Below, in pieces: positions 10,479 to 64,000 of a stretch of DNA of 64,000 bases. The notes beneath the pieces are model-generated. The model was not told where the DNA came from. It did not search any database and was given only the letters and a program-made list of their open reading frames with translations. Position numbers and translations under genes: made by a program. Where the stretch lies: positions 1,013,080-1,077,079 of the forward strand of contig FN649751.1 of the NCBI GenBank assembly GCA_000310025.1, given 5' to 3'. The DNA is from Ectocarpus siliculosus (lineage: Eukaryota > Sar > Phaeophyceae > Ectocarpales > Ectocarpaceae). Within the stretch, counting starts at the first letter, position 1; each line of letters opens with the position of its first letter.

Positions 10479-10578
10479 NNNNNNNNNNNNNNNNNNNNNN
10501 NNNNNNNNNNNNNNNNNNNNNNNNNNNNNNNNNNNNNNNNNNNNNNNNNNNNNNNNNNNNNNNNNNNNNNNNNNNNNN
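10479..10578. other. Assembly gap (100 N) with low-quality flanks
   Basis: Exactly 100 unknown bases. The right flank (10579-10958) repeats the sequence of 9984-10372 in the same order, but with homopolymers stretched and bases miscalled towards G, T and C, as in a low-quality read end. Gap size and local order are therefore not reliable. Confidence 0.95.
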
Positions 10579-34392: not shown

Positions 34393-37300
34393 CTATGACA
34401 TCAGATCTAGGAGAAGGTTAGCCCCTTCTTCGACAAAGTCACCGAGCACCAGGGTCGACAGCAGAGCAGCCGGTTGTTGGATGAGGGCTTCGACCAGAAG
34501 AGCCAGTACGCAGGTAGTCAGCCAATCGGTCGAGGTAGACCTGCGACGGCGACGGTTGCAAGTGCGGCCCATCATACGCGAAAGCATGTGCACATTGAGA
34601 ACCTTAGGGTAAAGAAACGACCCCCTCCACATTGCGTACAATGAATGGATGTTTCCCTGTACCCACGATTTTGTCTATAAATAACAATCAATGTAAGTCA
34701 AGACCTCTGTGTACGTATTCGGTGAACTTCAGACACGAAAACCCACACGAAGCGCAGACATGTTTTCATGCCACGGAGCAAACCATACCCTTGGCAATGC
34801 GCACTTTTTCGAGGAATGGACTTTGCGCAGACATGGCTGACGTGGCGGCACGAAGTGCCACATTCCTAAGAAAGGAACGTACCGATCGAACTTGGCAGCG
34901 AACACCATGTTGGTGTAGGTCAGACACAGGATTGTCGTGGCCACGGTCCCCTGTGCAAGGAAATACATCCCACGTCGTTGCCCCCGACAATCATGTAACC
35001 ACGTGCGAAATTCCAGCGCCCTGGCCGCCCTGTCGAGCGCATGGTGCACCCTGTCGGGCACAAAAACCGCACAGCATCGATAACGGTGCATATGACTGTG
35101 CCGCATGGAATGGTCTCGCACGTGTAAAGGAACCTTGTGAAGGACCTTTGTTCAGGTTTCACAGTAGTAGTGCGTCGTGGAGCGAAGAGTGCGGCAGGTG
35201 GGCAGACACGAGAAGCCCGCGTCGATTTTCCTTCACTTCGTGGAGACCCGGCTGTACTTGAGCTCTTCAACAACTTCAAATCAACCTCGGCATGATCGGA
35301 TTCAGAAGTTTCAGAAGTTTGACTGGTTTACCCATGCACATTTGCTAATGGCGGCACAAGTATGCAACATGCCTTGAGTCCTACGCTAACAAGGCGCACA
35401 TACGTGTCTGTTGACTGTAGGAGGCAGCAGTGCACTGTCGCGGTACGCAATTAAGCCGACACGTATGCCACGGTTTTGCACCTGAAGCAGCACTGGATCG
35501 TTTCCGCGGCTTTGTGCATTTCCCTCGTTGGGTTCGACCATGCTGCTACGAGGTCGCCTTCGATCAAGTCGCTCAGTATCTCCTCGTATTTCCGCTGTAT
35601 TCCGACCAAGTAAGCACCGACGAGGGTGATAACCGCACCAAGCACCGCCCCTGCAACGACATGGAGGCACCACAAGGCAGCGAGTTGTACTTAAAACAAA
35701 GAATTATTTGTGGGGTTCAAGTCTATACGCGCTGCGCAACATGTGGGAGACAAAGAGTAAAAGTTGATTGGTCCCGAGACGAAGTCGACGTGTATGTATG
35801 TAGCGTAACCTTCGAGTCTACATTACTTGAGAACACCATTATTAGGGTAGGTTAGCCTGTGACCACGGGAATCGACCGCGTCATGTATTAGATCAGTACG
35901 GACAGATGAAGGTAAACGGGTAGAGACATCGGAACGGGATTCAATGTCAAGATAACAACAACCCATCTCTCTATGGTTCACCTGCTGCAATAAAAACGCT
36001 CGAGCCGAGCAGAAGCACGCCGCACAGCGCCATGCCTGGGGCCACAACGCCTTGGAACGCTGTTGCTTTCCGCATTGTACGTGCACTACGACTCATAACT
36101 GAGAAAGCAGACACCATACACAGAACAGAGCTAGCCAGGCTCAGCGATGTGACCATGTTGTGCAAAACCGCGTATTCGTCTCCCCCGTCTGCCTCAGCTT
36201 CCCGCGAAACGCTTAGCACCTGTCGGTTGTGGAGGGCACGAGCGCGGGGACGGGTCTGTTGGCAGAAAAGACACGTGATGGTGACCCGCCTCCTAGATTG
36301 TGCTTATCTTTCAACGGGTGCAACAGGGCCAACGAGGAATGCCAGAGGAGTAGGGCAGAGCGGGCAGGCTCTAAAAAGATCGACCATCGTTGAGCATTGC
36401 CTCGCAGGGGTTGGCGAAGCTCGGTTGGCAGCTCACCTCAGAAACGAGCATCGCCAGCAAAATGGGCAGAGGGACGTAGACGAGAAGGAGCGCCTTCTGC
36501 ATCTCTACCACGTCCAGGTACGCCGCCGTTTCCACCACCGCCGCGTTAGGCTTCGGCTTGAGGAACGGAGACGCTGTGCCTTGCGCTTCTATCGCGGTGA
36601 ACATTCTGCTGGGGATGAGAATGATGATATGCACTTGAGCAACAGTCGCCGGAAAAACGTTAAAATTGCATGACCACATGTTGCCCATCTTATGTACAAG
36701 CCACCAACGAAACTCGGAAAAAAATATCTCACTCATCATCTCTTTAGTGTATGGCGCTGGCATCTGCCACATGGGCTGAGTCTAATAGAGCGTAGGGGGC
36801 TTAACGTTAACAATCAGGCGTTTGTCGTCAATATCGCTAATTGAAAAAAACGAGCACCACTGACCTCCTGCAGTGGACTACTTCAGATTTTCGCGGTCTT
36901 ACAAAAAATTAATGGTGGCACCCGTGGCGCTCTGAGGTGTGGCTGTTTTTAACGCACTCTCTGACTCGGAGATGACTAGCGATTTCGAATGGTGTCCACA
37001 TGTGCTGGGTACGATTATCGACATACCTGATGGGCGATGCCTTGCGGGGGGGGCGATGTTGCTCTTGGAAGCCAACCCGACGCGTGGCATCCCCTGGCCA
37101 CGTGGAAAAGTAGTCGCATGTCAAGGGCGGATCGAGAGAAACAGGTTAAGGAAGATCCACGGCAACAATAATGTCCCCGTGTACAACACAAGTACATGTG
37201 CGTACGTAAAAATCGATACGAACCATGTGAAACACCGTCTGGAACGTCTTCGTGGCGAGTTTCCGAGGTGAGATCATTCAAGCTGCTGATGATGCGGAGG

Positions 37301-39518: not shown

Positions 39519-42500
39519 CTGCCAAGACAAGAATGGGCCGATGCTCTCCATCGTAAGTGTTCCAGGCTTGGATTGACAAAGGCTCGGAAAGCACCTACAC
39601 CCTATTGTCTGGACTTGTTCGACAGAGGGTTCTTTACGCGGCAGGCGACACCTGTGCTCGGATTTCGCGTACATTTTGATTTCACCAACGCCTAAGAAAG
39701 TGATCCAGGGCGAAAAGAGAGCCGGATGTTCGACGGGCGAGAAAGACCACTACCACCAGACCACTCCGTCAACATGCTGCACAATATCTACAACGGATGA
39801 CCGCTTCCTAACAGAAGTGTGAATTATACGAAGAAAAGGCACATGTCCACCTGGTTGCGGTGCGTACGACCATGCAATATTAGTTGGGTTGCTCTATCTT
39901 GGCAAATTCAGGTTAATCGTAGTGCCCTTGGTTCACCTCTGCCAGTATGCTGAAGTCGGTGAGATCGGCTGTGCTCCACGTCGGGGTCGTCGAGTCCTCG
40001 CGGCCTGCAAACGCGCTGAGGTGGAACGTCGCACATTCAAGCACGACGGAGTGTGTGTTGTCCAGAGCCGCGCCGAGCGCGGCCAGTACCATACCGTCCG
40101 TCTTCCAATCGCCACTATCTTCTGACCAGTAGGCGCAGCCAACGTGGCTTAACGAGTTTTCGCCTTCAACCTCTGGGCCAGTCGACAGAGTCTCCTGCCC
40201 CACATGCGCGCAGCGATCAGCGAGGACGATAATCAAGGCCAACCGTTCCCACTTTTGTCGATAATTGGACTGAACGGCAGCAATTCATGCTTTTCGAGTC
40301 ACCTTGCTGTCACTTACAGTGGTGGTCCCGACATACCGCGGTCCCGAGTAGTGCGGGTCCCGCCCGATACACCGCTGTAAAATCGCTTGTCAAAAGGATT
40401 TGGCTCTGCACGATACTAAAAAGCTATATATTCCCCAACACTCAATATTGCGGTGTACCGATATTTCGTGGTGAATTCTGCCTGTCACTACACCGCGGTA
40501 TATCGGGACCACGACCGTATTCTATTCGCCTTTGAAGAGAATCCCATCCCACGCGACAGCATCGCAAATTCATGAATATATATTGACTGTAAGGGTGTTG
40601 CCACTGAATAAAAATACGAACAAATCAATTGAATACGATGTACAGCACAATCGGGTCAGCGAATGGAGCACCTTCCAATTCTTACCGGAAGGGCCATGGA
40701 CACCCCGACGGGTCTAGGAAATTGATACTCTGGTGCCCCAGTCGAGTCCCATGCGTCGATGACGGTCACACCATCAAGCCCTATTCATGGAAGGTAGGAA
40801 CACGAAGTGCACACGATGAATTGTATGTCAGTTCCTGTCTCACAGTGCCCACCTGGCAGAAAGTGGAGTTCGGCGTATCGTAACAGACTCATGTTCACGA
40901 TTGCCTCGTCCGTAGTGAGCATCTTGCCAAACAGCCCGATGGAATAGATAGATGAAGCAGCGTACGATGCGTGACATGTTCTCTTCAGACAATGGCTCCA
41001 CCCGCAGACAATGGTTCCGCCCACAAATCCGCAGCAGTTCGAACTCCTGTTTTGGACCCCATTTGGGTATGCGGGGCGAAACGAAGAGGTGTTTCTCCAC
41101 ATGCAACCCCTGCAAACGGCATAGATCATACAGCGAGTAGCTGAAGCGCCGAATCATGTCCCTCCAAGCCCACTTCAACTACTACATGTTTTCTCTCCGC
41201 GATGGTTGCGAGTTTATGGCCGAGGTTAACTGTGGTGACATCATCAAAGCACGCGTGAAGCGCGGTCTCGCACCTGAAGTTGTGGAATTGAATACTGCCA
41301 CCGCAAAGGTTCGGGTATTGTCAAGGTCTTCGTTGGAATCCACGGCGCTGTCCCAAGCATCAAACTCCACCTGTGCTCCGAAACCTCCAGCAGATATGGT
41401 TGTTGCCGACATATCAATCGGATGTGCTCTGGCAGGCTGAGAACGCCATGGAAGACAGGGTACATCGTTGGGGTGCCCTCGCATTATTGTTGAGCATTGC
41501 ACGAGTTGCTTGGAGTGGACACGATGAGCAACATGCAGTTCACTTGAATCTCCTCCAAAAGGATTTTGACACATGTTTGCAAAAAAGTACATGTGTAAGT
41601 CTTTGGTGAGTTGCGTAATGATGTTACGGCCCCTACTTTCACAACATACGGACATATCTGGCGAGGAAGTATGGTGGGGGTTTCCCTTCGGTTATGATGC
41701 ACACGGACACAATTTGACACCATTACGGTATTTGCGGGACGTGTACATCACTTTTGCATCTCTACCGCGGCTCGCCACGAAATCCCGCCATTTGGTGACC
41801 CCACCCCAGAGACCACACACCTGCATGGCTAAATCTCCCGCGCTTATCTCGTCCAGTTCTTCTCCCGCTTCGGCATCAGTGGCCATCGCGAGGCCCACTT
41901 CAGCGAGAACGGCGAGGCTATCTTCTTTCCGGAGGAGGGCTGTATCCGAGGTGACAGCTGTTGATGCCGACGAGGGTACCGAAGGCGACTGGCCGACAAA
42001 GAGCACCGATAGCATCTGCGGGGATGGCACGTTCAACAACCCGTCGGCCAACCACGGTACAGAGTGATGGATCTATGTCGGAAGAAAAGAGGAGCTTCGC
42101 GCGTCTGTTAAGATCAGTACGTCAAGCACTATTGGCTTACAACGCAGCGTCTAAACTTTCAATTTTCGACCTCAGCCATGGATGCCGTGGTGATTGCGGG
42201 CACTCACCGACACAAGCGCAAGGGCAGAAGCGTCATCCAGAGTTTCTCCCAGTTCGATCGCGGTCTCCGCCATGTCTCTAACAGCCTCGGTCACTTCAGC
42301 CAGCGTCAGATCCGACAGGACGCCGTCATCCTGTGACGGACATCGGAGACGCATGGTGCCAAATATGATGTGTCCAGTTTGTGCTTCGAACGCATGCCCA
42401 ACTCGCGGGGGGCGAGCCGCTCTGACGTAACGATATTCGGAGAACGCGATCGACATGCAAGATGCGATGGCCATCGTGCCTCGGCCGCGGAATTGAATGA

Positions 42501-45500
42501 GTGGTCGAACTCGAGTACTGGTTCGGATAACGCACAGGCATGAAGATCGTGTTTTGGTGGTGAATGGTCTTGCAACCAGCTGACACTACCGCAGTTGCAA
42601 CTCACAGCAAATGAGACGAGAGCTCCCGCAAGAGTCTGAGACCCTGCCACAACACTGCTCGATGATGTCTCCAGAGACAAATATGCGTCCACAATGAGGC
42701 CCACGAGATTTTCCTGTCGGGCGCATGTGAGGTTTGAGCACGACATGAATTAGCATTGAAAGCACGCCGAGGGATCCAGGATGGCAGTTTCCCTTCCTAC
42801 TTTTCCAAAAAGTTGTTTCCCCTTGCCAACATACATTAGTGGAGGTTATGCAGTCAATTGGCATCCAGGGGTCCAGATCTGATCCCTGGTGGGCTGACAT
42901 CGACCGGAAATCAGATGCCGCGTAATGTTTGCTCGGAGATTCCTGCGATGAATAACTGGAAAATTAATGCTAAAGCATGGCGCGGGACCAACTGGCGCGG
43001 GACCATCGTCTGTATGGGTTCATATCAAGACGTATTTTTCGCGACCGACAATGTTCGCTCCCACACCCTCTCCTCGCTTCCTTGCCGACGCTTTGAATGA
43101 TTTCACCGAGTGTGTCGTACCGAATGTGTATAAAAGTCCGAAATAAACGTCCCCCACCTGAAGGGCCACAATAGCCTCGATATCGCTCGCATTTGTTCGT
43201 GGCGCATCCAACAGAAGCGCCGTGGCGACCCGCGCATCACGGAGAGTATCCTCTGGATATGCCAAAGACTCGTTTCCGCAAGGATCGGTAGGAAAACACG
43301 TCAGGGCGTATGCCAGCGACAGAACCGAAGCCTGCACGTCGCCGTCAGCGGTACAACGTTGTTAGGCGAAGGTCCGAGGAGGTGCCTTTGACGAGGCAAA
43401 CAGTGGGTAAACCATGAGGTTATCGCCTCCCGCAACCTTACACCGTTCCTGAATTGCTACACTACGTTTTGTGAAACTCAGAACACTCTCGCACTTAGAG
43501 GCCGCTGGCTCTATCCATTTGAATCCGGTCTCCTTCATCACAAAACCCTCCAAAATATCATCCCGCCTATATTATCGTATTTGTTACCCAATCTCGCCTG
43601 CTCTGGAGGAGTAGATGCGATGATCATTGGTGTGCCATCGGCTCCAAGATTTGTTGAAGCTGTCGATCCGAGGGAGTCGGAGACAGACACCAGGATCGTG
43701 ACATTGTACCCATCGTCCGCCAAGCCGGACGGGATCTTGGTGCGCAGGGTGGGCGATGCTGACCAAGATGAAGACAACCGGTTCACTAGCACCGATTCAC
43801 TATGTAGAAGGAACAGGTATGACGGACGGGAGCGTTGGGTAGCACGGGGCGTGACCTCAGGCATAAGGGTTCCATTTTCAACCCAGGTTCACTTTTTTTC
43901 TCATTTTCTCGTCCGGTCGTACTAGTGCGTCAATGGGTCAATAGCCGGAACGGAACACTGCCGCGCAGACATTCTTAGGGGCACTGACACCGTGTGGGTG
44001 TGTCAGGGGTTCAATTAAACGATGACTACCTCCGTGCAGATGGCGATGAGCAACAACCGAAAACACAAACCAACATTTGGACCCATCGGGTTCAGGAGAC
44101 AAGGTACCTCGCAATCGTTGCCACTTGTTGGTATCCATGCACGAACCCAAAGGAGTGCGTGAACGGAAGATCGTCCACGTCATCCGTCCACCCTACGCTC
44201 TGGAGACGGACGCCATCGACGCCGGCGGTCGCCGATGAGGTGTTGGATTCCACGTGGCCCCCAGCGGGGGGGGCGTTGGTCTCGAACGAAAACTCTGTTT
44301 CGGCGCACGTAGGAAACAAACGCTTGAGAGCAAAATCACTGGCGGGCATCATGGGGAAGTACTGTATTCCATTACGGCCGCGTTGCAAAGTGAGTCAGAG
44401 AACCAATAATTAGGAAGTGGGTTCTTAATCGCCCTCCTCACGCAGTGTCAGGCCCGACATGACAACTTCAGCTCCGTCAAGAGACTCTCTGAAACAAAGG
44501 GCGACCATGTTCAGGCAAACATGATAAATTGGGGCGCTTACCTGCATAACCTTCCTGCCCGGATGTGTCGGTTGCAGATAGGGAGAACGTGTACGTCCGC
44601 CCCGCGCCAAGGACTCCTTTTCGGACAACGAGCACCCGATCGCTCGTGGTGGTGCTGAATACATCGTCCCACCCATTGCTCAAGTCGACGTTTCCGCTCT
44701 CCTGTCGACAGTTCGAGCAGTTGGGAAGAGTATCAGAGTTTAGGCCTGCACCTCCTACGCACAATACGCTGATGGGTCACGTACAGTTCAGATTCATATC
44801 CCCTTCTTCGTGGACATTTTAGCAAGTTCCACCGCGCGCGGGGGATGCTCTTTTCTTACCGGTTTCCACTCTAGCTTGAACAGCGACGAGGTCGAGGAGC
44901 TGCACAGCTCCTCTGCAGATGGGGAGGCGCACCCCTGTAGGACAACTTTTTCCGAAGGGTTGTATTTGCGGAGAATGGCCTGACGCACGCAACGAAGACA
45001 AACACACGGTACACGCAAGAGTGAGGTTTCGCCAAGTGATGTCGTTCGGCTGTGAATATGCTCCTCGCACAGCACATGCCGACACGGTATGGTCTACGAT
45101 ACTTGGTAACCCTGTGTAGCTTTTGCCTGAAGGTCAGTCCTTCAATGCAGAGAAGGTAAACGGAGAGCCAACCTTAGGAGAAACGGTGACGTGCGGAAGA
45201 GTTCCCTCGAACGTGGAAACAGTGCATGCAGTGTCGTCGCTTCTGAGCTCTACCGAGTCTTGAAAGACAGTCACGCCGAACTTGTATTCCACACCTGCGA
45301 AGGGGAGTGGACAACAGGAGCTCGTTTAATTCAGCGTCAAAGGTCTGTCGTCCTTAGCACGATAGATGGACGAAATAAATCAGGTCGAGGCTATTAGTAC
45401 CTAACTAAGCGGCGAAGACCTTTCGGTGCATGACCATATGGCCGTCGGACCTACCGATTGGAAGGATACCCGCAGATATTGTCAGTAGTCCTCCGCTTGA

Positions 45501-48500
45501 GAGTGAGTCAATATCCAACAGCTCCGTGCTCGGAGATGTGCAATCTTCTCCGACGTCGTCAGTACAATTCCATCTGAACTGTAAGGGGGATTCGTCCAAT
45601 TGGTCGTCATCCACCGACACGGACGCGTTCAAGTAAAGGTCCTGAAACACACCGACAAGAACATGCACAGCGAACGAGAGGAGATTTTGAGCTTGATGGC
45701 GGAGCGATCATGTAGTTTGATCTGCACAGCCCTATCCACCCCATGTATCAACAATCTAGGACCCACCAGCAGCCAACGTTTGATAACACAATTTTGAAAT
45801 GAAGAAGGAATGTTGCAATATATTTTCCCTGCATACGACAAGGGCACTTGGTGTTGAAGGAAGTGTTTCTCCCACCAAGATCAAATCAAGTTTCAAATAT
45901 TACTTGGTCGTGACCCGCGCGTCTTTTGTCTATGGCAAAACCACTATCGACTTGGATGATGGTGTCCTCGAGTGTAGCCTAACGGTTGCAATATCGGTAA
46001 AGAAGTGAAGATTCAAGCATGCACCAAGTTGATCTCAGGCACGATATCAACCTCTTTGGAATATTACCTGCATGACGCCAACCCTCCTCGTTGTCCCACC
46101 GAAGATGTGGGCGATTAGTGCTCCACTGATAACCTCAACTGTCGGGGCGAAGGGTTAGGGAACGCAGCCAGTTTCGTTTCAGTGGCTACCAGAGAATGAT
46201 GAATGCAACACAGATCCATCAATACATCGATGGGAACGGGTCGTCTTCTTTCGACATGCACAAGCTAGAGGCGGTAAGCTGATGTGTAAATGGAATGTGG
46301 TGATCGCATGACGTTGGGAGCACCTGTCGCAGTAGCCGAGGTAGTGCTCGGCGTGCTGCCTGCAACGGTCACCCTGAAGACGTAGATGCTGCCGGCGTGT
46401 CCCAACGAATATGCGGGAAGCTTGAGGACGCTGGGATTTCTCCCCTTGGTCAGCGTGACTGGTGGAAAGTCTTCCGTGGCACTGTATTCTGAAGCCAGGG
46501 TCCATGTGTAAGTAACATTGTCGTCTTGAGAACGAGGCGACGTTACCTCGGTGCGGACGGTAAGTGGAAGCCCACGCCACTGCTTCCAAGATGCAGATCC
46601 CGCAATCTGCAGGGAGCAACACAGCACCGCGGTTGACGTCGGCGGCACAAGCGTGGCAGGGTGAACTGATGCTGTAGGTGTGTTGTGGCCAACAACAACA
46701 CTCGGCATACTACTCCAACATCGTGCAGTGGGATGGTTGCCACAGATTTCATTCCCTACGATTAGATGCGAAGATCAGAAGCAGGGAGTCAATGCAAGCA
46801 GTTTTTCAGTTCTGCAAGTCAAGGGAAGGATCGACGTGTTTCCTGGACACCCAGTCCTAGGGCAATAATTGGCAAGTCCAACATTGTTTTTGTGCTTACC
46901 TTCAGCGCGGGAAGGGCATCAGTAGACTTGAATACCTCTACGATAGCATCGCTCCACGATCCAAGCCCCGTCGTCACGCGGAGGCTGAACCAGTATGTAG
47001 AACCTTCACCCAAGCTTGCGCTCGGCAGCGTGACAACCAACCCATTTTGAGCGCCGGCCTGGAGATCAAGCAGGTCATTCACGGCGCGCATGGGTGAGCG
47101 AATGGTTCCCACGGTGCGGGGAACAAAGGCGGAGCGGATGCTGCTTTCGGCAGTGCGAGGGCAAACGGTTGCCCTTATCCCTCGTTGGGCACCGCGAGGA
47201 AAAAATATCTGTACCATAGCTTGCACGGCATCGTGCCGTCGATGGCACGCGCCATGTCAACAGACCATGGCGCTGAGGACACTATCATAGCGTAAGACGA
47301 ACGTAGAGTAACCCGCCTGGTTAAGAACCGTTCTTGCGTCGGCAAGGTCGAAGGATTGATTGCCATCCACGATCCCAACGGTCCAGTTGCAAGTGAAGCC
47401 TGGGTTGCACACGGGAATATCGCAGCACAGTCGTTAGCGGTGGGGCCGTTAGCGTGGGGAAGACAACGCGCGCATTTCGGGAATAGACTGTAACGCACGG
47501 CATCAAACAATGGGAGAGCGAGCCTCAGCAGCTTTCAAATATGCGATCGACCGTGTCTCCGCGGCACGATTGAAGGGGTGCCCACATCGGTCAACCATCC
47601 TCGGACACAGGAGGTGCCAGATCCCGCAGACAACAGAACCAAGGCAAGGATCTCCACGCCGAATCAGGAGGAAAAGATTCCCCAAACCTAGATAACTTGT
47701 GACTGCTTCAACAACGCGTGGCCCTGCGCCTTCGCCCCTCTCCCTCCGCAATTGGCAGGTGAGCGGCGAAAATAACTGATGAGTACCGGGTCGACCGTCG
47801 TTCCAACATGCCAGGAGAGTTTAATTTCTCCGTGGCCACGCACGAGTTCGAAAACCTGCGGTCTTCGGAGCAGATACCGCATTTTTCTTGAACACTCGCA
47901 GAACGCCATGACGGCACGACCCTTCTCTGACCTTACGGCACATCAGTCTCCACTGTTGCACATCAGGCATACCTGTTGAAGGGAAGATCGCGATTCCCTC
48001 CAAGATCAAGTCGTCGCAGCAACCCACAACTTCCGGAGCGCTGATATCAACGACTGGTGGATTCGGCTCACTTGCGGGGCCAACCACGACACAACCAGCG
48101 GCCGAGGAGAGAAAGGCCCCGATCTAAAACGACAAAAGCATCCACGGGTAGAAACAGACGGGTTGAACTAGGTGGCCTAAGCAAGCTCCCGTGCGCGTGA
48201 ACGAATCTACTAGAGAACATATCTACTTTCCATGACGGCTAGCATGGCAATAACGGCCGAATGCAGTAAATTTGGGGATCGTTGCCCGAGCTCTTATGGT
48301 TAGGGAGCTTTGTCACCGCACCTCGGTGCGAGCTATTCCATCCAACAAGGAAATAGATGTGCCGTCGCCGTCGGTGCAGTTTGAATAGCTCGAGGGCCGA
48401 ATAGTGTAGTCGAATCCCAGCTCAACCTGAACACGTGTGCAAACCGTTCACAATCATTTCGAAGGCAAGGGGCTTCAGTTGCACACAACAGCCATGGGAA

Positions 48501-51500
48501 CACCCCTACAAAAGGTCTCAAAGCGTATGTTGAGCAGCCTGACAAGCGCACTGCAGACTTCTATCGACCACCGCGTGTTACGGCGTCAATACTCCATTTC
48601 AAAACGTGACCGACAAATCGAAGTAGTGGGTTCGACACGAAATGAAAGGTATCGACCACCGGCCGCGGACATGACATCACTTTACCGTTAGGATCGAGGA
48701 GGACGTAAATTGACTTGCGCAGCCAACGCCCAACGTAGCCGCAGAAGCTTCGGAGAAAGCTTCCCCGCAAGGCACGACAGCATAGCTGCCGTTAATGTCT
48801 TGAGAAGAAGCACTTCCTTCGAATTGAATCAGAACCTGCGAACGAACGAGAGCCAGAGAGTACACACCGTGAGTTTCAGCCCTCTGCACAAACACCGCCT
48901 GGTCAAGACTTGAACGCTGGCGGCAAGCGTCCGCTCTCAGCTCCTACTTGCCTGTGCTCCCTCATGGAACAATTTCGACATTTTTGCATGAATGCTCGGA
49001 GCATTTTGGCGGACACCGGCTGCCAAAGGATGTGTGCAACTCACACGGAAGTTTCGGTGGCAAACCCACCTGTTGTCCCGTGTCAGAAAACCATGCAGAC
49101 GACAGCTCTGGCGGGGGCGTGCGCGCCTGGACGACCACCGACCCTAGCAGTTCATCGGTGTATACACACAGATAGCGGGGGGAACAAAGTAAATTGAGCT
49201 TAGTTCTAAAGGTGATCGGCCCATTTCCAGCGCGCTATCGGAATGCGTCGACGATACATCATTGATTGGGTCGGCCAAGCGAGTTATTTCTCCGCCTGTA
49301 ATTATGGGCAGACTAGTGTGTACTTAACCGACCTACAACTTGTATATCTCGTCACTCGCATGCAACGGTCTCAACCATTTTCCACCAATCTCCTCGTTCT
49401 TGCCTGTAGCATAGTTGGTGCAGCCGGAACAGCCGGCAATGTATTCGCCAGTTGGGTTGAGCGTGATCGTCGATCCTTCGCCTACGGAGTAGCCTGGGTA
49501 CATCAACGGCACCCGAGATGGATCTTGATATTTTCCATTCTTACAACGTCTTTCTTGGGGATGGCTACGCGAGAGACATATCCGGTACCATGCAAAAGCA
49601 GGCCTAGAAGCCACATCATAGCCGTGAGCCACTTCCTAGCGGTGAGTAACATTTATTCGTCAAGGAGTGATGCCGGGGCGAACCATGAAATGCTTCCTCT
49701 TGACAACACCGAGGGTATGAGGCTGACGAGGTAAGAAGCCACGTGGGATAAATCCTCCCAACTATTCTTACCTGTGCCGAAAATAATCGTTACCGTGCTT
49801 TCATCCTTCCAAGAGCACGATGGCGCGCTGCCTAGGCTCGCCACGGTGTCGCCATTGAGCAAATTGTCCACGCTGCACGCCGACCCAAAACAGCGTGTGC
49901 CGTAGCACCACAGCCCTTTTCAAGCAACGGAAGCGACAGGCCATTCATCACATGTTGGTCTATTCCGGAGTTTTTCACGGCATTTCAGGCTTTCGCTAGC
50001 GATTTCATCTGTGCGAAGGTTGTCTACATCGTAGTCATGCCGGAGTAGTGCAAACCGTGCCCAATGGTGTGGAATGGGCGACCTAGAGGATGCCTCCACC
50101 GGTTTGACACGCCAAATTTTGTTGCATGGCATCCTATTCATGAAAGGCATGCACACCCCGACTCGCGATACTCCAAAGTTACGCAGCACGGTCTCTTTAG
50201 ACCAGCAACGCGTGATCCCGAGAATACGTGTCAACTCAGAACTCGAAGTGTTGAACCGTAATCCCGTGTAGGGGCAAGCGACGCCCACCCGTCCGCGCGT
50301 CACCTGTACTCGCCCTACCGAGTCCGAAGGTCGCATCTATTCCTATCAATGCCGCCGCTAATCTAGCTTCTTCAAGCTCCGGGCGTGATGAGAACATCGT
50401 CGGCCCGGGCGTCGGTGTGGATGTTGGGGGTGGTGTCGGAGGAAGAGTTGGACCTAGAGTTGGTGAGAGAGTCGGTGCCTTCGTGGGTCCCGGCGTGGGC
50501 GCTGACAAGGACGAGGACAAAAAACGAGACGGGGGAATGATACAACATTATGGGCTTTGGGCCACAAGGTAGTGTATAAATGTTGTACCATTGACTGCCG
50601 CCGCTCTGTGTTCAACAGAACGCCCTTACCACAACGTACACGCATGATCACCCTAGCGTCTGCCAGATGCCAGAACAGATGTATATGTCGAAAACAAAGT
50701 GTACTTTTGCTTCGAAATAAAGGCGGAAGTAGATGGCGGTGTACGTGAAACACTATACTAACGGTTCGCACCTGGTGTGAGACCGGGAGTAGGAGCGGGC
50801 GATGGAGCCAGCGTGGGAGCGAGTTTTGGAGACGGTGTTGGAGCCAGCGGGGGGGCGGTTGTAGGAGCGGGTGTTGGAGCAGGTGTTGGAGCCAGCGGGG
50901 GAGCAGTTGTGGGAGCGGGTGTTGGAGTAAGTGTTGGAGCCAGAACCGGGTGTTGGAAGAAGAACATTAAAGCCTCCATGGGAAGCTGGTGCAGTGAAGA
51001 GCACCTACAATAGGGTCAAGATAAACGTGTGCGAGTTCTTCTCCCTCTCTTGTTCCCCGGCAGCTTCCCTGTACTGGTTTCATCACATAGGTATCTCTAT
51101 ATGGGAAGTATAGCGACAGAAGCTGATTCTAAACGCACACCTTGTGTGGGAGCGGGGGTGGGAGCGGGAGTGGGTCCACACACAATGTCCATAACGACGA
51201 GGCCGCCAGTGTCTTCACTTGCTGCCATAGAGATGAAGAGCCTTTCCGTGGTGTTGGAAACGACAAACCCAGCGATGACTCCAGACACAGTTTTTGTTTC
51301 GCTGTTGAGCTGAACCGCGACCCCACCAGATAAGGCCCCGGTGGAACTATCTCGCTGGAACACCACCACCTGCGGCGTATGCGGAGGATTGTTTTACAAC
51401 GCTCATGAGCACCGTGGACGTAGAGACGTTCCATGTCTTAGTCAACTCTTGAACCTAGACGAGCAAAAATGTTTTCGTCGGGCAGGATCCCGCATCCCGT

Positions 51501-54500
51501 CAAGGGGCACCGCTGATACAGTGCAAAGGGTGCCACAAGAAGAGAACTAAGCTCAGCGGACGGGTGTCCATGATGGTACAACCAGTCCGCGGATCGTAAG
51601 AGTATTCTTCGGTGCCCCGATAACCACTAAAGTTTCAATGCTGAGCACAGAAGTACATACCAACTTCGATACACCCCGAGAGGCCACAATAATTTTTCCA
51701 GCTAGTGTGGTGCGTCCAGAGAAAGAGCGTGCAACAGTCATCGAGGATGCTATCACCACGCACTCCTCCATGGTCCGCCGTAGATCTCGTTTCGGGCAGA
51801 TGCATTTTTCCACTCGGTAGTGACTCGCTGATGGTTCAAGGATGTGCATACCTCGTCAGATTCATGTCGACCGATCAAGACCGTAAGCTCGAGCGCCTGC
51901 GCTACGAACACCTCTCCGGAAGTGCTTCCGCTTATGCTTGAGTCAGCGATGAAGGTGGTAGTCGACGTCACGACGCCGTTCGCAACGTCTAACCGCAGAT
52001 GAATGACCACAGATGTGGCACAACCGAGGACATAGATCTGTCGGGGCGGGGGGGGCTCCGTTCTCATTGGCGGTGGACACGTCCATGATATCGCATTTTC
52101 TGCCAACTCGGCCGAAAACCCGGAAATGATGTACGGATTGAACTTGGTCGAATACCGTAATTGTGCGTGTGATGGCACCGGGGTGCAATCGTTTTTTATA
52201 TCATTCCTATCTTGGTTTTTTATCGCACCCCAGTGCCATAACACCGATGGGTGCCATAACACCGATACCGGTGCGGAAATGCAATTAAATCATTTCGTTC
52301 TAGATTTTCAACGCACCCCCGGTGCGATGACACCGATGGATGCGTTACGGAAGAAATCAAAGTGGCCGTGATACGGTGCTGAGTAAGCGCATGCGATGAC
52401 ACCGATAGGTGCGATACTCAATAAATGAACAGGTGGTCCCTGGTACACGTAGATTGCGTAGGCGGTACCATGCAACCAGCCCGGAGTGGTGATCAGTGAT
52501 GAGGTCGAAGGAGAACAGACTCTGTGGTTCCCTGCTGGGCAAGGTATACGGCACGGTATCGTTTTTGTTCCAACCTCTTTGTTGGTCGCAAGCCCCTCAT
52601 TTGTTGGCTGTTGTTTCCATCTGTCTTTGTCTGCTTCAAGGGGCATGGTACCGGTAATTGTAGTACCGTTTACGAGCTCCTTCTTGTTCGGTTGGTTGGA
52701 GGCGTGGGATGTGTAGTGTGTGCTTGTGGTTGAATGAGTGAGTGCATTAGATGTACGGATTACCGTAGAAAAAATTAATAAATCATTCCTACTGCGCAAA
52801 CCACGACTGCACGATATACATACATGAAATGGCGCCCCATTTGGTACCTGCCAACTGCGTCACATACCGTTCGACAAGTGGCCCGGAGGGTACCGGCACC
52901 TTGCGGAAACACGCAAGTTTTCGTCCTTAGCAGATTTTATATTGTTGATATCGCACCGGGTGCGAAAACACCGATACCGGTGCGGAAATACAACTAAATC
53001 ATGCCGTTCTTGATATTTTTGCGCCCCATGGTGCCATATCACCGATGGGTGCGAAATCAACGATGGGCGCGATGACACGCACAATTACGGTAATCGCCAA
53101 AGAAGCAAGAGAAGCGGGACGGGCATCTCTCCGCGCCTCGAGCTTGTCACCCGTGCGTGTTTCATGGCCAGAGCCAAAACAACGGATGTAGGATCCGACG
53201 CGCCCACCACAACTTCATTACACAGCCCATGATATCTCTGTGGCCCGTGATACAGGTCGAGGTAGTCTGCCGTCTGGGCTGTTGCCGAAGGATTGGTGCT
53301 TGCAACCATCTCCTCGTCGATTTGAATGATTGGGCGGCATACACAACATTTTGTGTAGTCACAGCAGTCTCAATCTATTTACTTGAAGCTCACCGAGAGT
53401 CCATCCGGTGACACCACGATGTCGCAAAGCTCCCCGTCAGGTGCCGCCGAAGACCAAGTTGGCTCCTCGGTGCCATCGCTATTGACCGCCAATACAACTT
53501 CGTCGGTTGTGGAAACGTAGAGGGTCGAACCGCCGGGGCTGAAAGCAACCGCTTGGACGTCGTGCAATGATGAGTCCTTCCCTAAAGTGGGAAAGGTTGA
53601 GGTTGTCCTTCCCCCCCCCGAGGCATAAATAGTCATAATGACAGCAAGCAGCACAACAAGGAAAACCAGTTAGTTTCATTCGAAGAAGTCAAGAAGACGC
53701 ACCGTGGCACGACCCGCAATTTCCTTAAAAAACGCTCACGGGCTGTGGCTGGATGGCGAGTTCAATGAGGCAAAAGCCATGATAGCCGCAACGGTTGGCT
53801 CTATTCACAATTCCATATGGTCTACACACGGCAGGATTTGGTCGGGGTTCAAACCACAGCGCCAAAGCCCACCAAGAACTGAAGACATCGTGCGCGGAAT
53901 ACAAAGAATGTAGGGTGAAGACTGCGCGGGAGCGCATGATACATCGGTCAATTCACGCCATTCTCTACTAGGGATCTTACCCAAAGTTGCCGGCGGTATC
54001 AACAGTGAGTCGTCGCACGCCACCACCTTCTCCTGCCAGGGCTGCTCAAGTCATCGAGGCCAGCAAGTAACACAAAGAAATGGAAACGGGAATCCATAGT
54101 GAGCACCAGCGATGCTTTAACGAGGTAATGTTTTACAGGAAACACCAAAATAATTACCAAGTGACGATATATCCATCTGTAGTATAGTGTGAGCGGTACC
54201 TGGAAGGGAAGGAGGCACGTGATCAATGAATGAGCTCATTATCGGTTATATAAAAAAAATCCGAGTATTCCGCTCCTCGTTGAAAAAACGTCTGAACGAG
54301 TGCAGGTTAACTACTGTATGAGGACTGGCCAAGGTCTCAGTGTGGATTAAACTACTCTTCGTATGCCAAAAGGGCTGCTTCACTTGTTGTATCGATTTCC
54401 GAGTGAGAGCTCATGTGTTTGTCACAACGCCATCTGAACGGCACATTAAGTGGTTACACCGCGACCTCACGGATGGCCGTACACATTTCATCTCTCGCTT

Positions 54501-57500
54501 CCGTCTTACCGATGATCGAAACCTCTTCGATTACGCTGATGGACATCGCGTCCCTGCCTCCGCAAATTTGCGACGCATCACCATCGCACGGGTCATCGCA
54601 AGCTGTAGATTCACCGAATACATCGTAGTCGTCATCTCCGCACCAACACTTGTTTAATAGTAGGCAGTGGTTGGCCGGCACCGAGTAGTCACGGACATGC
54701 GAAGAATTGCACGCGTCGTGGAGGGGGTGGTAAATCTCAAATAGGTTAATAACCGCGGAAGCTTGGCTTCGGAGGAACAGGGAGATGCGCAGGCTCAATA
54801 GTACTTGCCCGCCTACTACACTTGCGTTCGGCGAGGTACTGGTGTTCGACTAGGGCAGGGTATGTTGAGATCGGCAAACACCAGATGGACGAAACAGCAC
54901 TTGCATGTCTTCCTCTCCAAACGAGCGCGAAGCAAGGCCATAAGGTGATGCGACAACGAATGCCCCGAAGACCTGCAACATACTTCTTGTAGAGGAATAC
55001 ACGGAGTGTTGTGCAAGAGAAAATAGAGCACGGTTGGGGAAGCCCGTCCAACAGACCTGGAATCACGGAAACAATGGTGGCAGCAGGTAGATCCTCGGTG
55101 TGCTTCAGAAAACAGCACTGTGCTTGAGTTGAGACTTCTATGGGTACCTCTGTCAGTACATGTTGAGGTCCCCGGGGGATTTTCTCGACACTGTTGATCC
55201 AATGGTCCTTGGGAATCTAGAGTAGCTAAGGTATGGTGCTGGCGAGTGCCGAATCTGTCCAACCCCCTAATAGCGCTTCACTCAACTCATGAACGTCACC
55301 ATTAGTGTAGAACAAGAAATAGGTTCGGATTTACGTGTTTGACTACATATCATCGGTTCAGGCTTGTGGTCGCAACTCTTCGAAGGGGAACGCTAGACCA
55401 AAACGCAGCGCTAGGCCTACGGACGTGAGCTATTGCCCCGTCTCAAATGAGCCTTTGTGGCGATTGGTGCCGAACGTGCCTGGAAACGTGTGAAGTGCAC
55501 CTAACATAAATCAACTCCAGGGAGATGCTTACGGCATAACAACCTTGTTGGTCTAGTTTCCAGGCTACTCCAAGGTGTCGAAGGAGAAAGTAGAGCAGCA
55601 ATGTTACCCCCTTAAAGAGTGTTTCTGTCACCAGTCTGCATGCTAGGTGTTTGGGGTGTCTTTCTTATCGCGAGCAATCGTGGCTCTTCCCGTCGCTTGC
55701 ACAAGTCAGCACTACCCCAGCAGCGTCTTTGAGTACCCTCCACAAGATCATGTGCGATGCGGGGGCACTTAAACTCCCGACGTTTCGTCTTGCAACCATG
55801 CAGTTTTAAGTCTTGCAACAAGCAATGATGTGTGTAAAATACATTGCCAACGTTTACAGTCGTTCGGGCGTTGCTCTGTGATAGGCATGCAAGGGGCCCT
55901 CGAACTCAGCAACTCGTCGGCAGGGTCAGCGCACCCATCGAAACAAAGCCCCCACGTCAAGGTACATAGGTGTGTTGCTGGCTAGTGCGTTGCGGATCTA
56001 CGTGTTTGTTACAATAGCGACTGGCACATCCCATATTTCTTGTCCCTAAGAGCCACCGAACATCGGGAGATCGATATGATCCGGATATGGCCTACTTTCT
56101 GAGACAAACGTTTCTCACCCAGTAAAAGGAAAATCGCGTTGCCAAAACGTTGCTACTCGTTCCATGGCTCACCTCGCGCGCAAACTGAGTTCCGAAGTAC
56201 TTGAAAGCGCTGCAATGCTCTTGGCACAGCTTCGCCGGCGTGGTAGGTGACAGCAAGTTTGTTCGAGGGGACAGGGGAGATTCGACGACGTGTAAATGGG
56301 CTACAGTATCGTCCGATGGAGAAGAAAAGCTTTCGAGATTCGAAGCTTCGTCCTTTGCGTCTGTCACCGTGATCTACCTTAGCAGCCACCCAGTCCTATG
56401 TAGACAAAATTGTACGCTCTAATCTAGACACGTGTCGGAGCAGCGAAGGCCCCTTTCAAGCCATGTTGCACTCACCTCTGTGGTCATGGTACCGGCTAAG
56501 GAAATCTTGGTGGCGGAACTAAAGACACGATTTCCTTTGTCATCCGCGAAGCAGCCAAGGTAGGTGGCTGTGGTCAACGGAGAGCAAAAATAGAAGTAAA
56601 GCTGAGGTCAAGTGGCGCAGCATGGGGGAGAATCTGAACAGTGATGAGGTTCATGACCGGACGTCCCCCACCCGCACTCATGACTTGCATGAGTGTATGG
56701 CATCGAATCTCCTTCCGCGATGTTTCGGGCGTGGCTCGCCGGAGGAAACAATCTATCGTGATATCTTCGAGATCTCTCGCAATGTCGTTTGTCAATGGTG
56801 GCACCAGGTACACGCGCACGTCGCTCGATAAGCTTGGTTTTGTGAGAGGGACAGACAAGGGTGTTTGCGTTGTTTTCTGCGTGATATTGTTCGGCGTGCG
56901 ACGCCTTTGCCGTCGTGCCTCTACACTGTGCAACTGGGCATGTGATACACGGCAGTCTCAGAATCCCACCTACGACTTGGGTGACGCTATATGCAGATTC
57001 GAGCACCACATCGTCCTGATCGTTGTCTGTGGTGCTGGATGAACCTTCCAGTTCCGGTTGGGTGATGCTGGTAGAACCAAGCAGAACCATCGAATCGGTG
57101 GACGGGACGACTTCGGAGTACTCATAGGTGACAACCGTATCCTCTCCATTGACATGCGTGAACGCCTGGTGAGGGTTTAATCAGTGGGAGGTCGAACGGT
57201 CAAGGTGGTCGGCCATGGGGAATTCTGGGTCGGAGCCAAAGTACAACTAGCTGGTGTGCGGCGCTATTTTCACGCGTCGCCGCATCTTCACCAGATTTCG
57301 AGGCAATAACACGTTCTGTTTTTTCCAGCGCAAGCCCTGTCGGTGTAAGTACTTGCACAGGACCTACGGCGATGCTCAAACACGATTAATGGCAACAACG
57401 ATTTTCCGTTTGTGGATTGCATCGCGTGTTCGTATTCAGGAACGTTTGTGATATAGGGAACCAATAAACCACCCATAATGTACCCATTCAAAGTGCTCCT

Positions 57501-58749
57501 GCAAAGGGGCACCACAACGTTTATCGAGTTGCACCTTCAGCGATGCACACACATTGTTTTGGATTCAAAGCGAAGAAAAATCCCAAAAGGCAACTTACGT
57601 GGATATCTGAGGATCCGGGCCGAAGCATTAGCCCCCTCAATTCGTCAACCCCCCCCGAGTCCAGATCTATGAAGGAGTATAGCCCGGCGCTTGAGGGGTT
57701 CCAGTAGCCGGTGTTGCTCCAAGCCAGTGGTTGCGCTGAATCAGCATCTATTGTTATCACCTGGGGTCGCGTTGGAGTCGACCGAGCGTCGATAAGTTCA
57801 CAGTTAGCCCTATGCCGATGGGATTAGCAGTGAGAAGTACAGAACATGCCCGGTAATGTGGAGATCGATATTAGTTCACTTCAAATGAATGTATCCGCAT
57901 ACTTCGTAAAAACGACCGATTTGTTGGTATGCTAACTTCACTCGAGAACGTATCGGTTGCCTTCAGGCATCGTGTGCGCGTGATGTTACCTTTTTTCAGT
58001 CGGCGGGTGGACATGCGACCAACATCGATCAGCCTTGGAACACAGTAAACCGCTTGCAGCTACTTCACGGAGAAGTTGTTGTGAAGAGATTATTGCGGGG
58101 GGACTATATCTTTACCGTCCTGATGCCTCGGAGCCATGCCGAGACTTCAAATGCGAGAATCCGACCAAAGCGATGAGTCGAAGACAACGTAAGCTAGCCA
58201 GGAGAATGTGCCCCCTCCTCCAGCACATATTTCACATTCCCGACTAGCTGGCATGGCTGGGGAAGCACCAGGAGCGAAAAGGTCGCTAAGCACAAAGTCT
58301 GCAAGGAGAAAATAGACCGAGCGAACGGAAATACTCACCCACTCTTCATTTTCACTGACGGCAATCTGATTTCCTAGCATGTACCCAGTGGTGGAGGACG
58401 TGAGCGTTGCGGAAGTTGAGGCGGAGCCAGTCCTTATCGGGACGTCCTGCACGATCTCCAAACTATCAGCCGGCAGTTAAGATACGACGGGCAGACGACG
58501 AAAGGGTGAGGTCAGCACGCCCTGTTCCACCCACAAGAAGAAGTTATCTGCAAACAACCACTGAAAAAGGACGTTCCAAACGTTGGCGTTGGGAATAGAG
58601 TCTATCGCAAGGTTTTGTCTGGCTGAAACTGCGGTGCCTGCGCCGGCAAAACAAACAAGAAACACTACCCCAGTACAAAGGTACAAACGTATACTTCGTA
58701 TGGCCGTAGCAGATGCACACGCGCTCATTGCACAGCGCGATACCCCCAT
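34393..58749 (-). CDS. Giant multi-pass receptor: WSC, beta-propeller, REJ-like, GPS and TM segments
   Basis: Exons with matching splice sites, read 5' to 3' on the - strand: 58749-58535 (or 58559), 58462-58339, 57760-57599, 57165-56974, 56876-about 56660, 56601-56476, 56229-56173, 54648-54510, 54041-53981, 53607-53394, 53237-53151, 52037-51852, 51765-51661, 51369-51141, about 50990-50772, 50501-50319, 49872-49772, 49493-about 49386, 48835-48686, 48426-48322, 48123-47973, (unresolved 47.9-47.3 kb), 47058-46900, 46606-46324, 45641-45455, 44701-44542, 44294-44108, about 43730-43590, 43331-43158, 42330-42208, 42015-41821, 41436-41274, (about 40970-40860), 40170-39937, 39518-39432, 38296-38208, 37923-37839, 37578-37362, about 36595-36437, 36219-35982, 35650-35482, 35050-34883, 34540-34393 (TAG). 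The product is about 2,200 residues, secreted N-terminus outside. The order resembles polycystin-1 and adhesion-receptor proteins, but with a WSC domain and propeller in front and no PLAT domain seen. A role in sensing or attaching to the cell wall is inference. A split into two genes is possible but phases argue against it. Confidence 0.72.
39937..40170 (-). other. GPS (GAIN-type) autoproteolysis exon
   Basis: A single phase-0 exon encodes GCAYWSEDSGDWKTDGM, then VVLECATFHLSAFAGRED. The spacing Cys-x-Tyr-Trp ... Trp ... Cys-Ala-Thr-Phe-His-Leu-Ser fits the GPS motif of adhesion GPCRs and polycystin-1, which cut themselves between Leu and Thr or Ser. The His-Leu-Ser tripeptide is kept, so cleavage is plausible. 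The exon sits directly before the first membrane exon, as expected. Confidence 0.85.
40317..40517. mobile_element. 201-bp TA-flanked MITE
   Basis: Termini CAGTGGTGGTCCCGACATAC and, inverted, CGGTCGTGGTCCCGATATAC are flanked by TA on both sides (40315-40316 and 40518-40519). Both continue into CGCGGT. No coding capacity. It lies in a receptor intron just upstream of the GPS exon. Confidence 0.7.
40860..49872 (-). other. REJ-like extracellular region
   Basis: Marks, 5' to 3': NLLNGDTVASLGSAPSCSW then VTIIFGTG, PPVVDISAPEVVGCCDDLIL (start of the REJ-type module), QDDNVTYTWTLASEY with LKLPAYSLGHAG, GEGSTYWFSLRV, DESPLQFRWNCTDDVGEDC, GRTYTFSLSATDTSG, NAPPAGGHVES with GWTDDVDDLPF, DDGYNVTILVSVSDS, then helical exons with LTLAEVTEAVRDMAETAIEL. 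This succession matches REJ regions of polycystin-1 and sea-urchin sperm receptor proteins. Some exons between 47.9 and 47.3 kb, near 43.7 kb and near 40.9 kb are not resolved. Confidence 0.7.
50319..51181 (-). other. Pro/Thr/Ala-rich linker exons
   Basis: The end of exon 51369-51141 reads CGPTPAPTPAPTQ, the next exon holds an array of APTPAPTTAPP type, and exon 50501-50319 starts APTPGPTKAPTLSPTLGPT before entering EARLAAALIGIDATFG. Such linkers are usually O-glycosylated spacers. Within the middle exon two frames are open and both repetitive; phase with the next exon favours the Pro/Ala/Thr frame. The upstream junction of that exon does not resolve in phase. Confidence 0.7.
51141..54041 (-). 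other. Beta-propeller region
   Basis: Six exons encode blade-like repeats: GGGVRRLTVDTAGNFG, VQAVAFSPGGSTLYVS then VVLAVNSDG, DIVVSPDGLS, VVLALAMKHAR joined to IYVLGCATSVVIHLRLD, GEVFVAQALELTVLIGRHE, VVIASSMTVARSF and VVVFQRDSSTGALSG then RLFISMAASEDTGGLVVMD. This is the pattern of lactonase- or WD-type propellers (hydrophobic strand, SPDG turn, YV strand). Known propellers bind ligands or partner proteins; no catalytic residues can be assigned. Confidence 0.75.
52155..53090. mobile_element. 936-bp TA-flanked non-autonomous element
   Basis: Ends CCGTAATTGTGCGTGTGATG at the left and CCGTAATTGTGCGTGTCATC inverted at the right, each bordered by TA. Two direct, diverged copies of a block of about 130 bp lie inside (52217-52350 and 52937-53060), sharing ACACCGATACCGGTGCGGAA. 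No transposase frame. The element fills most of a receptor intron between two propeller exons. Confidence 0.68.
54510..54648 (-). other. WSC domain, third exon
   Basis: The exon encodes CWCGDDDYDVFGESTACDDP, then CDGDASQICGGRDAMSISV. CWCG and the QICGG block are the hallmark C-terminal half of WSC domains. The donor is GTAAGA. It is separated from the previous exon by an intron of about 1.5 kb with no visible insert. Confidence 0.88.
56173..56601 (-). other. WSC domain, first two exons
   Basis: Exon 56601-56476 encodes ATYLGCFADDKGNRVFSS and exon 56229-56173 encodes LCQEHCSAFKYFGTQFARE, ending at GAG|GTGAGC. Together with the exon at 54648-54510 they give the Cys pattern of a WSC domain, a module of fungal wall sensors and of several stramenopile proteins, thought to bind carbohydrate. 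Confidence 0.85.
58535..58749 (-). other. Receptor exon 1: start codon and signal peptide
   Basis: The ATG at 58749-58747 opens a basic stretch, then a hydrophobic core LYLCTGVVFLVCFAGAG and a likely cleavage after AVSA. This directs the rest to the secretory pathway. Two donors (low end 58535 or 58559) both leave two codon bases, matching exon 2. Confidence 0.65.
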
Positions 58750-62336: not shown

Positions 62337-63836
62337 CACGCACCAGCACGGGACGCGCCAATAGTGGAAGCACTCGTCCGTGCTGTTGGCGAGTGGAAGT
62401 TAACCGATCTCAACGCAACGAAACACGAAGCCATACATGTATCAGCACGGGATGCGCCAATGAGTGGAAGCACCCGCGCTCTTGGCGAGTAGAGTTAACC
62501 GAATTCAACGCAGCGGTAGAAAATACCACAAATCATGCATCAGTACGGGACGCGCCAATGAGTGGAAGCACCCGTGCTGCATATGTGATGTCAGCCTCAG
62601 CACGGGACGCGCCAATGAGTGGAAGCACTCGTGCTGTTGGTGAGTAGAGTAAACCGATCTCAAAAAGAAAGAACAAAACGCCGTACATGTATCAGCACGG
62701 GACGCGCCAATGAGTGGAAGCACCCGCGCTGTTGGCGAGTAGAGTTAACCGAATTCAACGCAGCGGTAGGAAATACCACAAATCATGCATCAGTACGGGA
62801 CGCGCCAATGAGTGGAAGCACCCGTGCTGCATATGTGTTGTCAGCCTCAGCACGGGACGCGCCAACGAGTGGAAGCACTCGTGCTGTTGGCGAGTAGAGT
62901 TAACCGATCTCAAAAAAAGAAAGAACAAAACGCCGTACACGTATCAGCACGGGACGCGCCAATGAGTGGAAGCACCCGCGCTGTTGGCGAGTAGAGTTAA
63001 CCGAATTCAACGCAGCGGTAGGAAATACCACAAATCATGCATCAGTACGGGACGCGCCAATGAGTGGAAGCACCCGTGCTGCATATGTGTTGTCAGCCTC
63101 AGCACGGGACGCGCCAACGAGTGGAAGCACTCGTGCTGTTGGCGAGTAGAGTTAACCGACCTCAAAAAGAAAGAACAAAACGCCGTACACGTATCAGCAC
63201 GGGACGCGCCAATGAGTGGACGCACCCGTGCTGTTGGCGAGTAGAGTTAACCGAATTCAACGCATCGAAAACGAAGTCGTACACGTATCAGTACGGGACG
63301 CGCCAATGAGTGGAAGCACCCGTGCTGCATATGTGTTGTCAGTTTCAGCAAGGGACGCGCCAATGAGTGCTGTTGGCGAGTAGAGTTAACCGATCTCAAA
63401 AAGAAAGAACAAAAACGCCGTACACGTATCAGTACGGGACGCGCCAATGAGTGGACGCACATGTGCTGTTGGCGAGTAGAATTAACCGATCTCCACGCAT
63501 CGAAAACGAAGTCATACACGTATCAGTACGGGACGCGCCAATGAGTGGAAGCACCCGTGCTCATATGTGTTGTCAGTTTCAGCAAGGGACGCGCCAATGA
63601 GTGGAAGCACCCGCGCTGCGTACAAGTATCAGTACGGGTCGCGCCAATGAGTGGAAGCACCCGTGCTGCATATGTGTTGTCAGTTTCAGCGAGGGACGCG
63701 CCAATGAGTGGAAGCACCCGCGCTGTTGGCAAGTGGAGTTCACCGTATCCAACGCATCGAAAAAAAAAAAAAAAAACACGTATCAGCACGGGACGCGCCA
63801 ATGAGTGGAAGCACCCGTGCCGATGGCGAACCGGGG
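62337..63836 (+). repeat. Satellite with 250-bp higher-order period and hairpin cores
   Basis: About 19 copies of a core of about 39 bp: CAGCACGGG, a 21-base loop containing CGCGCCAATGAGTGGAAG, then CCCGTGCTG. The two 9-bp arms are perfect inverted repeats in the best copies. Cores are joined by three alternating spacers (ATATGTGTTGTCAG; GTTGGCGAGTAGAGTTAACC with an A-rich tail; CAACGCAGCGGTAGG with CACAAATCATG). Landmark GAATTCAACG recurs at 62501, 62751, 63003 and 63253, giving a period of 250-252 bp, after which the order decays. The long + strand frames across it repeat STGRANEWKHP and are a by-product. Confidence 0.9.
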
Positions 63837-64000
63837 TTCACCGAATCCAAGAAAATATATATATAAAAAAAAAAAAAAAGAGAAACCATCGCTAGTGTTC
63901 CAAAGAGAGAAATATTCGGGATTGGTCGACGTCCGGTGACCGTAGCGTCAGCAGCAATAATCACTCCATTCAATCCACAGGCGTCGAGAACGAACTAACG

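Follow-up and report, generated by a model that had tools for sequence, protein, structure and literature searches.

Gene model and module order

The window analysed here is a stretch of 64,000 nucleotides (contig C26, positions 1013080-1077079, of a 189-Mb assembly in 492 contigs, which was also the subject of all genome searches reported below). Its minus strand carries a gene model of 46 exons (58446-34393; 6,849 nt, 2,282 codons), the sole stop of which is the terminal TAG. The initial annotation had read about 40 exons on one strand, in phase through most junctions, from a signal peptide to a stop. A single open frame was indeed recovered from about 58.4 to 34.4 kb and is closed by the TAG, but the exons number 46, and the putative signal-peptide exon at 58749 is followed by no strong phase-0 donor (best score about 2.4); nothing in the tandem copy of the gene described below matches the region around it (58849-58647). 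Frame breaks or internal stops at the junctions, named at the time as evidence that would speak against an intact gene, do not occur in the 2,282-codon model, the boundaries of which were partly chosen for phase. The features of the model, in the direction of transcription, are:

58339..58446, minus strand: first well-supported exon, start of the propeller head; 36 of 36 residues identical in the tandem copy, weakly similar to locus L035 on contig C15 (E 0.16)
56970..57760, minus strand: propeller blades before the WSC domain, two exons (57760-57599, 57165-56970), the second ending in phase 1
54510..56567, minus strand: WSC cassette, three exons (56567-56476, 56229-56173, 54648-54510), phase 1 at both ends; placed by PF01822 (55.6 bits, 1-82 of 82) and splice sites
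51139..53581, minus strand: propeller blades after the WSC domain and start of the Pro-Thr linker, three exons (53581-53394, 52037-51852, 51369-51139); PF10282 below cut-off, PDB matches
50289..50985, minus strand: Pro-Thr-rich linker, repeat-encoded, two exons (50985-50772, 50501-50289); head/body divergence break at about 50.94 kb
46900..49915, minus strand: ectodomain from the linker to the REJ match, eight exons; spliced model and tandem-copy comparison
43598..46606, minus strand: eight exons with the Pfam REJ match (about 46426-43636; PF02010, 177 bits); two of them hit independently, below cut-off, in the single-exon search
40686..43331, minus strand: GAIN-like region from the REJ match to the GPS, six exons; GAIN by position only
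39937..40194, minus strand: GPS-motif exon with two Cys and a putative HL/S cleavage site at about 40023; Pfam GPS just below cut-off, motif in all four loci read
34393..39518, minus strand: 12 exons of the membrane part with about nine hydrophobic segments, closed by the stop TAG; spliced model and hydropathy

Stop-to-stop frames and coding score alone were insufficient to define the gene. The coding score marked 23 minus-strand and 9 plus-strand segments in the window, 32 in all; five of them scored at least 14, four of these lying in the gene; since a plus-strand bin inside the gene (48-52 kb) scored as well, the score was judged unfit to define exons. A self-trained exon finder was dropped due to over-prediction (281 exons on one strand, 294 on the other). 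The model was derived from a tblastn search of the window frames against the tandem copy, which yielded conserved blocks along the gene and, from these, pair-guided exons that were then corrected at the splice sites. From the pair-guided model of 53 exons, the bridging exons 55102-55032, 54032-53981, 53312-53151 and 38048-37965 and four exons upstream of 58446 were taken out, exon 38874-38758 was added and several exon ends were shifted. Splice sites were picked with the tandem copy in view and, for the WSC domain, also with the domain consensus. Three donors in the 46-exon model read GC where the tandem copy has GT, and the tandem copy does not conserve acceptor 50985, at which the first Pro-Thr exon starts.

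Elsewhere in the window, plus-strand frames at 25013-28964 contain the motif FDPVFFFHHCNIDRM (at 26943), which by likeness may be a tyrosinase-like copper site. Near the window end, 62340-63877 is taken up by a tandem satellite whose unit measures about 95 bp, and a run of 100 N at 10479-10578 is either an assembly gap or a withheld stretch.

Comparison with the tandem copy

The tandem copy was found via matches to the REJ exons and lies on the same strand about 36 kb upstream (C26:1108906 to 1083252). Its model has 45 exons (7,062 nt) and its sole stop at the end; one weak linker acceptor (1101164, score 0.63) was picked to keep the frame. When the two linker exons of the window are merged, all 45 matched exon pairs either agree in length (32) or deviate by a multiple of three (13). 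Because phase and the tandem copy guided the choice of boundaries, the intact frame and the paired exon lengths attest consistency and are not independent proof. Support that is independent of boundary choice comes from blastn: between linker and stop there are 22 matches (E <=1e-5, >=60 nt), all of them exon-sized and 70-83% identical, with none listed in between.

Over the 1,740 codons of the body, the two copies share 62.6% of their amino acids (dS 1.15, dN 0.264). The dN/dS of 0.23 denotes purifying selection, and both copies thus look functional. That the window copy is a decaying pseudogene, as its three GC donors and weakly supported start could mean, is extremely improbable in view of 2,282 codons without an internal stop and of dN/dS values that lie at 0.19-0.35 in all eight segments analysed, those for the head segments being based on few changes.

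A propeller-type head with a WSC domain inside

The WSC domain of the initial annotation was confirmed by Pfam. Joining the three exons raised the match to full length (PF01822, 55.6 bits, E 6.4e-15, profile 1-82), as against 25.5 bits on the earlier gene model; the acceptors of two WSC exons have low scores (1.3 and 0.4), and the WSC consensus guided their choice. The annotated beta-propeller agrees with matches to a Lactonase profile and to PDB propellers, but the former, obtained with the WSC domain left out, stays below the cut-off (PF10282, 20.4 vs 21.7 bits, E 3e-4), and the best PDB match (E 3e-8) covers just 27 residues. In total, 14 PDB sequences were hit at E <=10: four named WD-40/beta-propeller, nine Cake/Scone, which we take to be designed propellers, and one pyrrolo-quinoline quinone. 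NCBIfam gave no match for the propeller.

Contrary to the initial annotation, which placed the WSC domain in front of the propeller, it sits inside it with blades on both sides. Both junctions that flank it, at the end of the preceding exon and at the start of the following one, are in phase 1, so that gain or loss of the cassette would leave the frame unchanged. In a relative on contig C15, L035 (C15:4860001-4868000), propeller exons occur in the same order, twice, and no WSC-exon match was found between the corresponding propeller exons; its homologues of the pre-WSC exons are weak (E 0.008 and 0.28 in the first propeller, 2e-5 and 0.006 in the second). The tandem propeller sets of L035 are separated by a short Thr-Pro stretch, and the locus perhaps encodes a two-propeller receptor.

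No described animal protein had been thought to have the module order of this gene. As human PKD1 and the sea-urchin proteins SpREJ6, 7 and 10 contain WSC according to the accessible part of a published survey (PMC1934368), this main claim of novelty falls. What stands is narrower: neither a propeller nor a WSC domain inside a propeller was found in front of REJ in the literature searched, as far as its accessible text goes. A WSC domain carried as a phase 1-1 exon cassette within a propeller, and absent from the one C15 relative read, looks new.

REJ, GPS and membrane part

The REJ (egg-jelly-receptor) module was corroborated by a strong Pfam match (PF02010, 177 bits, E 7e-52) that maps to about 46.4-43.6 kb; the tandem copy reached 149 bits, both scores stemming from a slightly earlier model. 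PDB returned nothing for the REJ ectodomain. For PKD repeats, a single K319L-like_PKD match of 24.6 bits stays below the cut-off of 27, and the Pfam scans gave no match to leucine-rich or C-type lectin domains. As for the annotated GPS, the HLS triplet and two Cys are present, but the Pfam score of 20.2 bits is below the cut-off of 22.5, as are the 20.7 bits of the tandem copy, which reads HLT. An HLS or HLT triplet and two Cys were seen in all four loci read (window, tandem copy, L036, L037); the two Cys presumably hold the first and third canonical places. A GPS contains two to four Cys, according to the accessible part of a review (PMC9672506).

Behind the GPS, each copy shows eight hydropathy peaks, the union of which gives nine places, in line with the annotated estimate of about nine membrane segments. 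Both copies have an extra peak in their GAIN region, and the tandem copy has another in its head; these were taken as non-membrane. An IQ-like motif, AAETIQCCF (35482-35510, minus strand), was noticed by eye between membrane segments and is perhaps a calmodulin site. At E <=1, Pfam found no PLAT domain in the membrane part of either copy (the window sequence scanned was without one 117-nt exon), no PF08016 cation-channel domain and no seven-membrane-receptor (secretin-like) domain; NCBIfam gave no match for the membrane part, and PDB gave none with either a single sequence or a 3-row profile.

By eye, we take membrane segments 2-3 and 8-9 to resemble TM2-5 of PKD1. The likeness to polycystin-1 and the sea-urchin REJ proteins further comprises WSC (in hPKD1 and SpREJ6, 7 and 10), REJ, a GPS-type motif and many membrane segments, to judge from the accessible text (PMC1934368, PMC9672506), and PKD1 combines the first three of these as well. 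Still, a true polycystin-1 orthologue would be expected to have eleven membrane segments rather than about nine, and the empty PDB searches do not point that way either. Because neither a PLAT nor a polycystin channel domain was found, the gene is not filed as such an orthologue, a reading that we consider very improbable. A putative propeller is present here instead, and the leucine-rich and C-type lectin matches are missing along with PLAT and channel. Adhesion GPCRs are comparable in having an adhesive head and a GPS-type cleavage motif ahead of the membrane part; they differ from the present gene with its roughly nine segments and no Pfam match to a seven-membrane receptor.

Relatives across the genome

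Genome-wide searches with single exons mostly miss this gene: its WSC and GPS are absent from the results, and two of its REJ exons score below cut-off. Profile searches gave 12 exon matches for REJ at E <=0.1, six for GPS and 102 for WSC, exons of which are abundant. A query with the body gave at least 36 matches, three of them on C15 (31 of 170 candidates scored). The propeller query matched the C26 pair, many plain WSC exons and five places on C15 (about 4058k, 4813k, 4859-4864k, 4887k and 4932-4937k). At four of these five, propeller exons are followed on one strand by REJ/GPS or body exons (e.g. minus strand, 4864514 to 4846208). The propeller exons at 4058k have no REJ/GPS match listed, and the REJ/GPS loci on C9, C251, C2 and C21 have no match to the propeller query; the head is therefore not shown for the whole family. 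Altogether there are roughly a dozen REJ/GPS loci, of which the one on C251 is perhaps a second copy of C9:360k.

The PF08016 channel domain has eight matches in the genome and none in the 14 control genomes. G-alpha has 24 exon matches in the genome, and two of the 14 controls gave matches, none over the cut-off. The 82 exon matches to light-harvesting proteins mark the genome as that of a photosynthetic organism; together with the many WSC exons and the REJ/GPS genes, they suggest a brown alga. Contigs C92, C232 and C488 carry arrays of light-harvesting copies with an equal score of 127.6 bits (10, 3 and 5 rows, respectively).

Divergent histories of head and body

Between the tandem copies, the 455 codons of the head are 95.8% identical in amino acids, with a dS of 0.081, a dN of 0.021 and a dN/dS of 0.26. 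Compared per 400 aligned bases, and with some large gaps disregarded, the DNA with its introns is 80-99% identical from 61.0 to 50.94 kb; the adjoining bin drops to 55%. By blastn the conserved head block begins at 60918. The break coincides with a 12/36/48-bp repeat at 50784-50943, from which part of the Pro-Thr linker is translated. Identity to C15 is 35-63% for head exons and 44-52% for body sequence, so that slow evolution of the head does not suffice as an explanation. Most simply, some 10 kb including the upstream flank would have been converted or copied recently between two genes that are themselves old. The step in synonymous divergence at the Pro-Thr repeat, from 0.08 in the head to 1.15 in the body, looks new.

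Such a step is also expected if only the upstream one of two neighbouring genes had been copied, i.e. if a gene for a secreted propeller-WSC protein and a separate gene for a REJ-GPS-membrane protein had been joined solely by our modelling. The weakly defined start of the head and of the first linker exon, as well as the propeller exons at C15:4058k with no REJ/GPS match, would fit this as well. However, exon 51369-51139 closes with Pro-Thr repeats and exon 50501-50289 opens with them, a single modelled exon of 607 nt in the tandem copy carries the repeats together with the first body residues, and propeller exons precede REJ/GPS or body exons, in order, at four C15 places. Two genes are thus improbable. 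One large receptor-like protein, as initially proposed, appears well supported by the collinear tandem copy, the four C15 places and the Pro-Thr repeats on both sides of the head/body junction.

As a tentative idea, for which we would claim somewhat less than an even chance, this receptor family may swap heads between tandem bodies, the repeat in the Pro-Thr stalk being the recombination point, so that two old and diverged signalling bodies would now have nearly identical propeller-WSC heads; the WSC domain may have been gained by insertion of phase-symmetric exons into the propeller. A precedent is found in brown algal ROCO genes, in which symmetric exons are shuffled in the ligand-binding part; according to the accessible text these are single-repeat LRR exons of phase 2 (PMC11378527), unlike the one phase-1 WSC cassette and the copying of a whole head seen here.

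A candidate surface receptor and its possible role

Brown algae are walled multicellular organisms with an evolution separate from that of animals; to our knowledge, their gamete receptors are not settled. Relatives in the REJ family have been proposed for this function. The accessible part of one Ectocarpus study puts forward a male-gamete REJ protein as a gamete-receptor candidate and describes Esi0130_0068 as a protein of 1,427 residues that has REJ, GPS, 6-7 membrane segments and signs of positive selection and lacks a lectin domain (PMC4700764); that of another reports five REJ-like proteins expressed exclusively in male gametes (PMC3879662). Among the ancestral sex-region genes of brown algae is one for a putative transmembrane protein with a possible part in gamete recognition, according to the accessible text (PMC12592211). 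The present gene shares with the Ectocarpus proteins REJ, a GPS-type motif, several membrane segments, the existence of several REJ-like genes and a probable brown algal origin. Going by the published description, it is unlike Esi0130_0068, which has no lectin domain upstream of REJ, in its 2,282 modelled residues and its propeller, WSC domain and Pro-Thr linker.

On balance, we favour with moderate confidence a single gene encoding a large cell-surface receptor, of the REJ-GPS multi-membrane kind known from brown algae, with a propeller-WSC head and a likely function in gamete recognition. The chain would be secreted to the cell surface and would cleave itself at HL/S. Its head may then bind a glycan or glycoprotein on the partner cell or in the wall, and binding or pull would shift the N-terminal fragment. 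The freed stump or body could subsequently signal, perhaps via G proteins or via separate polycystin-type channels encoded elsewhere in the genome. We infer these steps partly by analogy: the GPS mechanism has been described for polycystin-1 and adhesion GPCRs, and signalling by the freed stump has been proposed, in the accessible part of the review cited above (PMC9672506). The likeliest setting would be recognition by a gamete, probably a male one, with gamete expression borrowed from the Ectocarpus papers.

The initial annotation had suggested two roles, wall integrity and gamete recognition. Yeast Wsc1-type wall sensors, with which the gene shares the WSC domain, have a Ser/Thr-rich stalk, Pro-Thr-rich here, and a single membrane segment; we know of none with REJ or GPS. 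The same protein could nevertheless serve vegetative cells as a sensor of wall integrity or of mechanical stimuli, its WSC domain binding wall polysaccharide as in yeast Wsc1. The domain itself and the 102 WSC exon matches would agree with this, as would published work on yeast Wsc1 and on brown algal walls, which contain WSC proteins in the accessible account (PMC8307928). We regard this as rather unlikely, since the C15 relative that was read has no WSC domain, so that the family can do without wall binding by WSC, and since REJ-like relatives in Ectocarpus are expressed in male gametes, as far as the accessible texts describe them (PMC4700764, PMC3879662). Of the two suggested roles, wall integrity has the WSC domain as its one piece of evidence, while gamete recognition is indirectly backed by the five male-gamete-only proteins of the accessible report (PMC3879662). 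On this reading, the protein would be a cleavable receptor that binds a glycan ligand at the cell surface and acts more probably in gamete recognition than in wall integrity.

The gene supplies a possible head, propeller plus WSC, that the candidate Esi0130_0068 lacked, and makes the ligand testable. A head and a body with separate histories affect how selection on such genes should be measured. If head-swapping is true and the proteins are gamete receptors, it would be a route to new recognition specificities.
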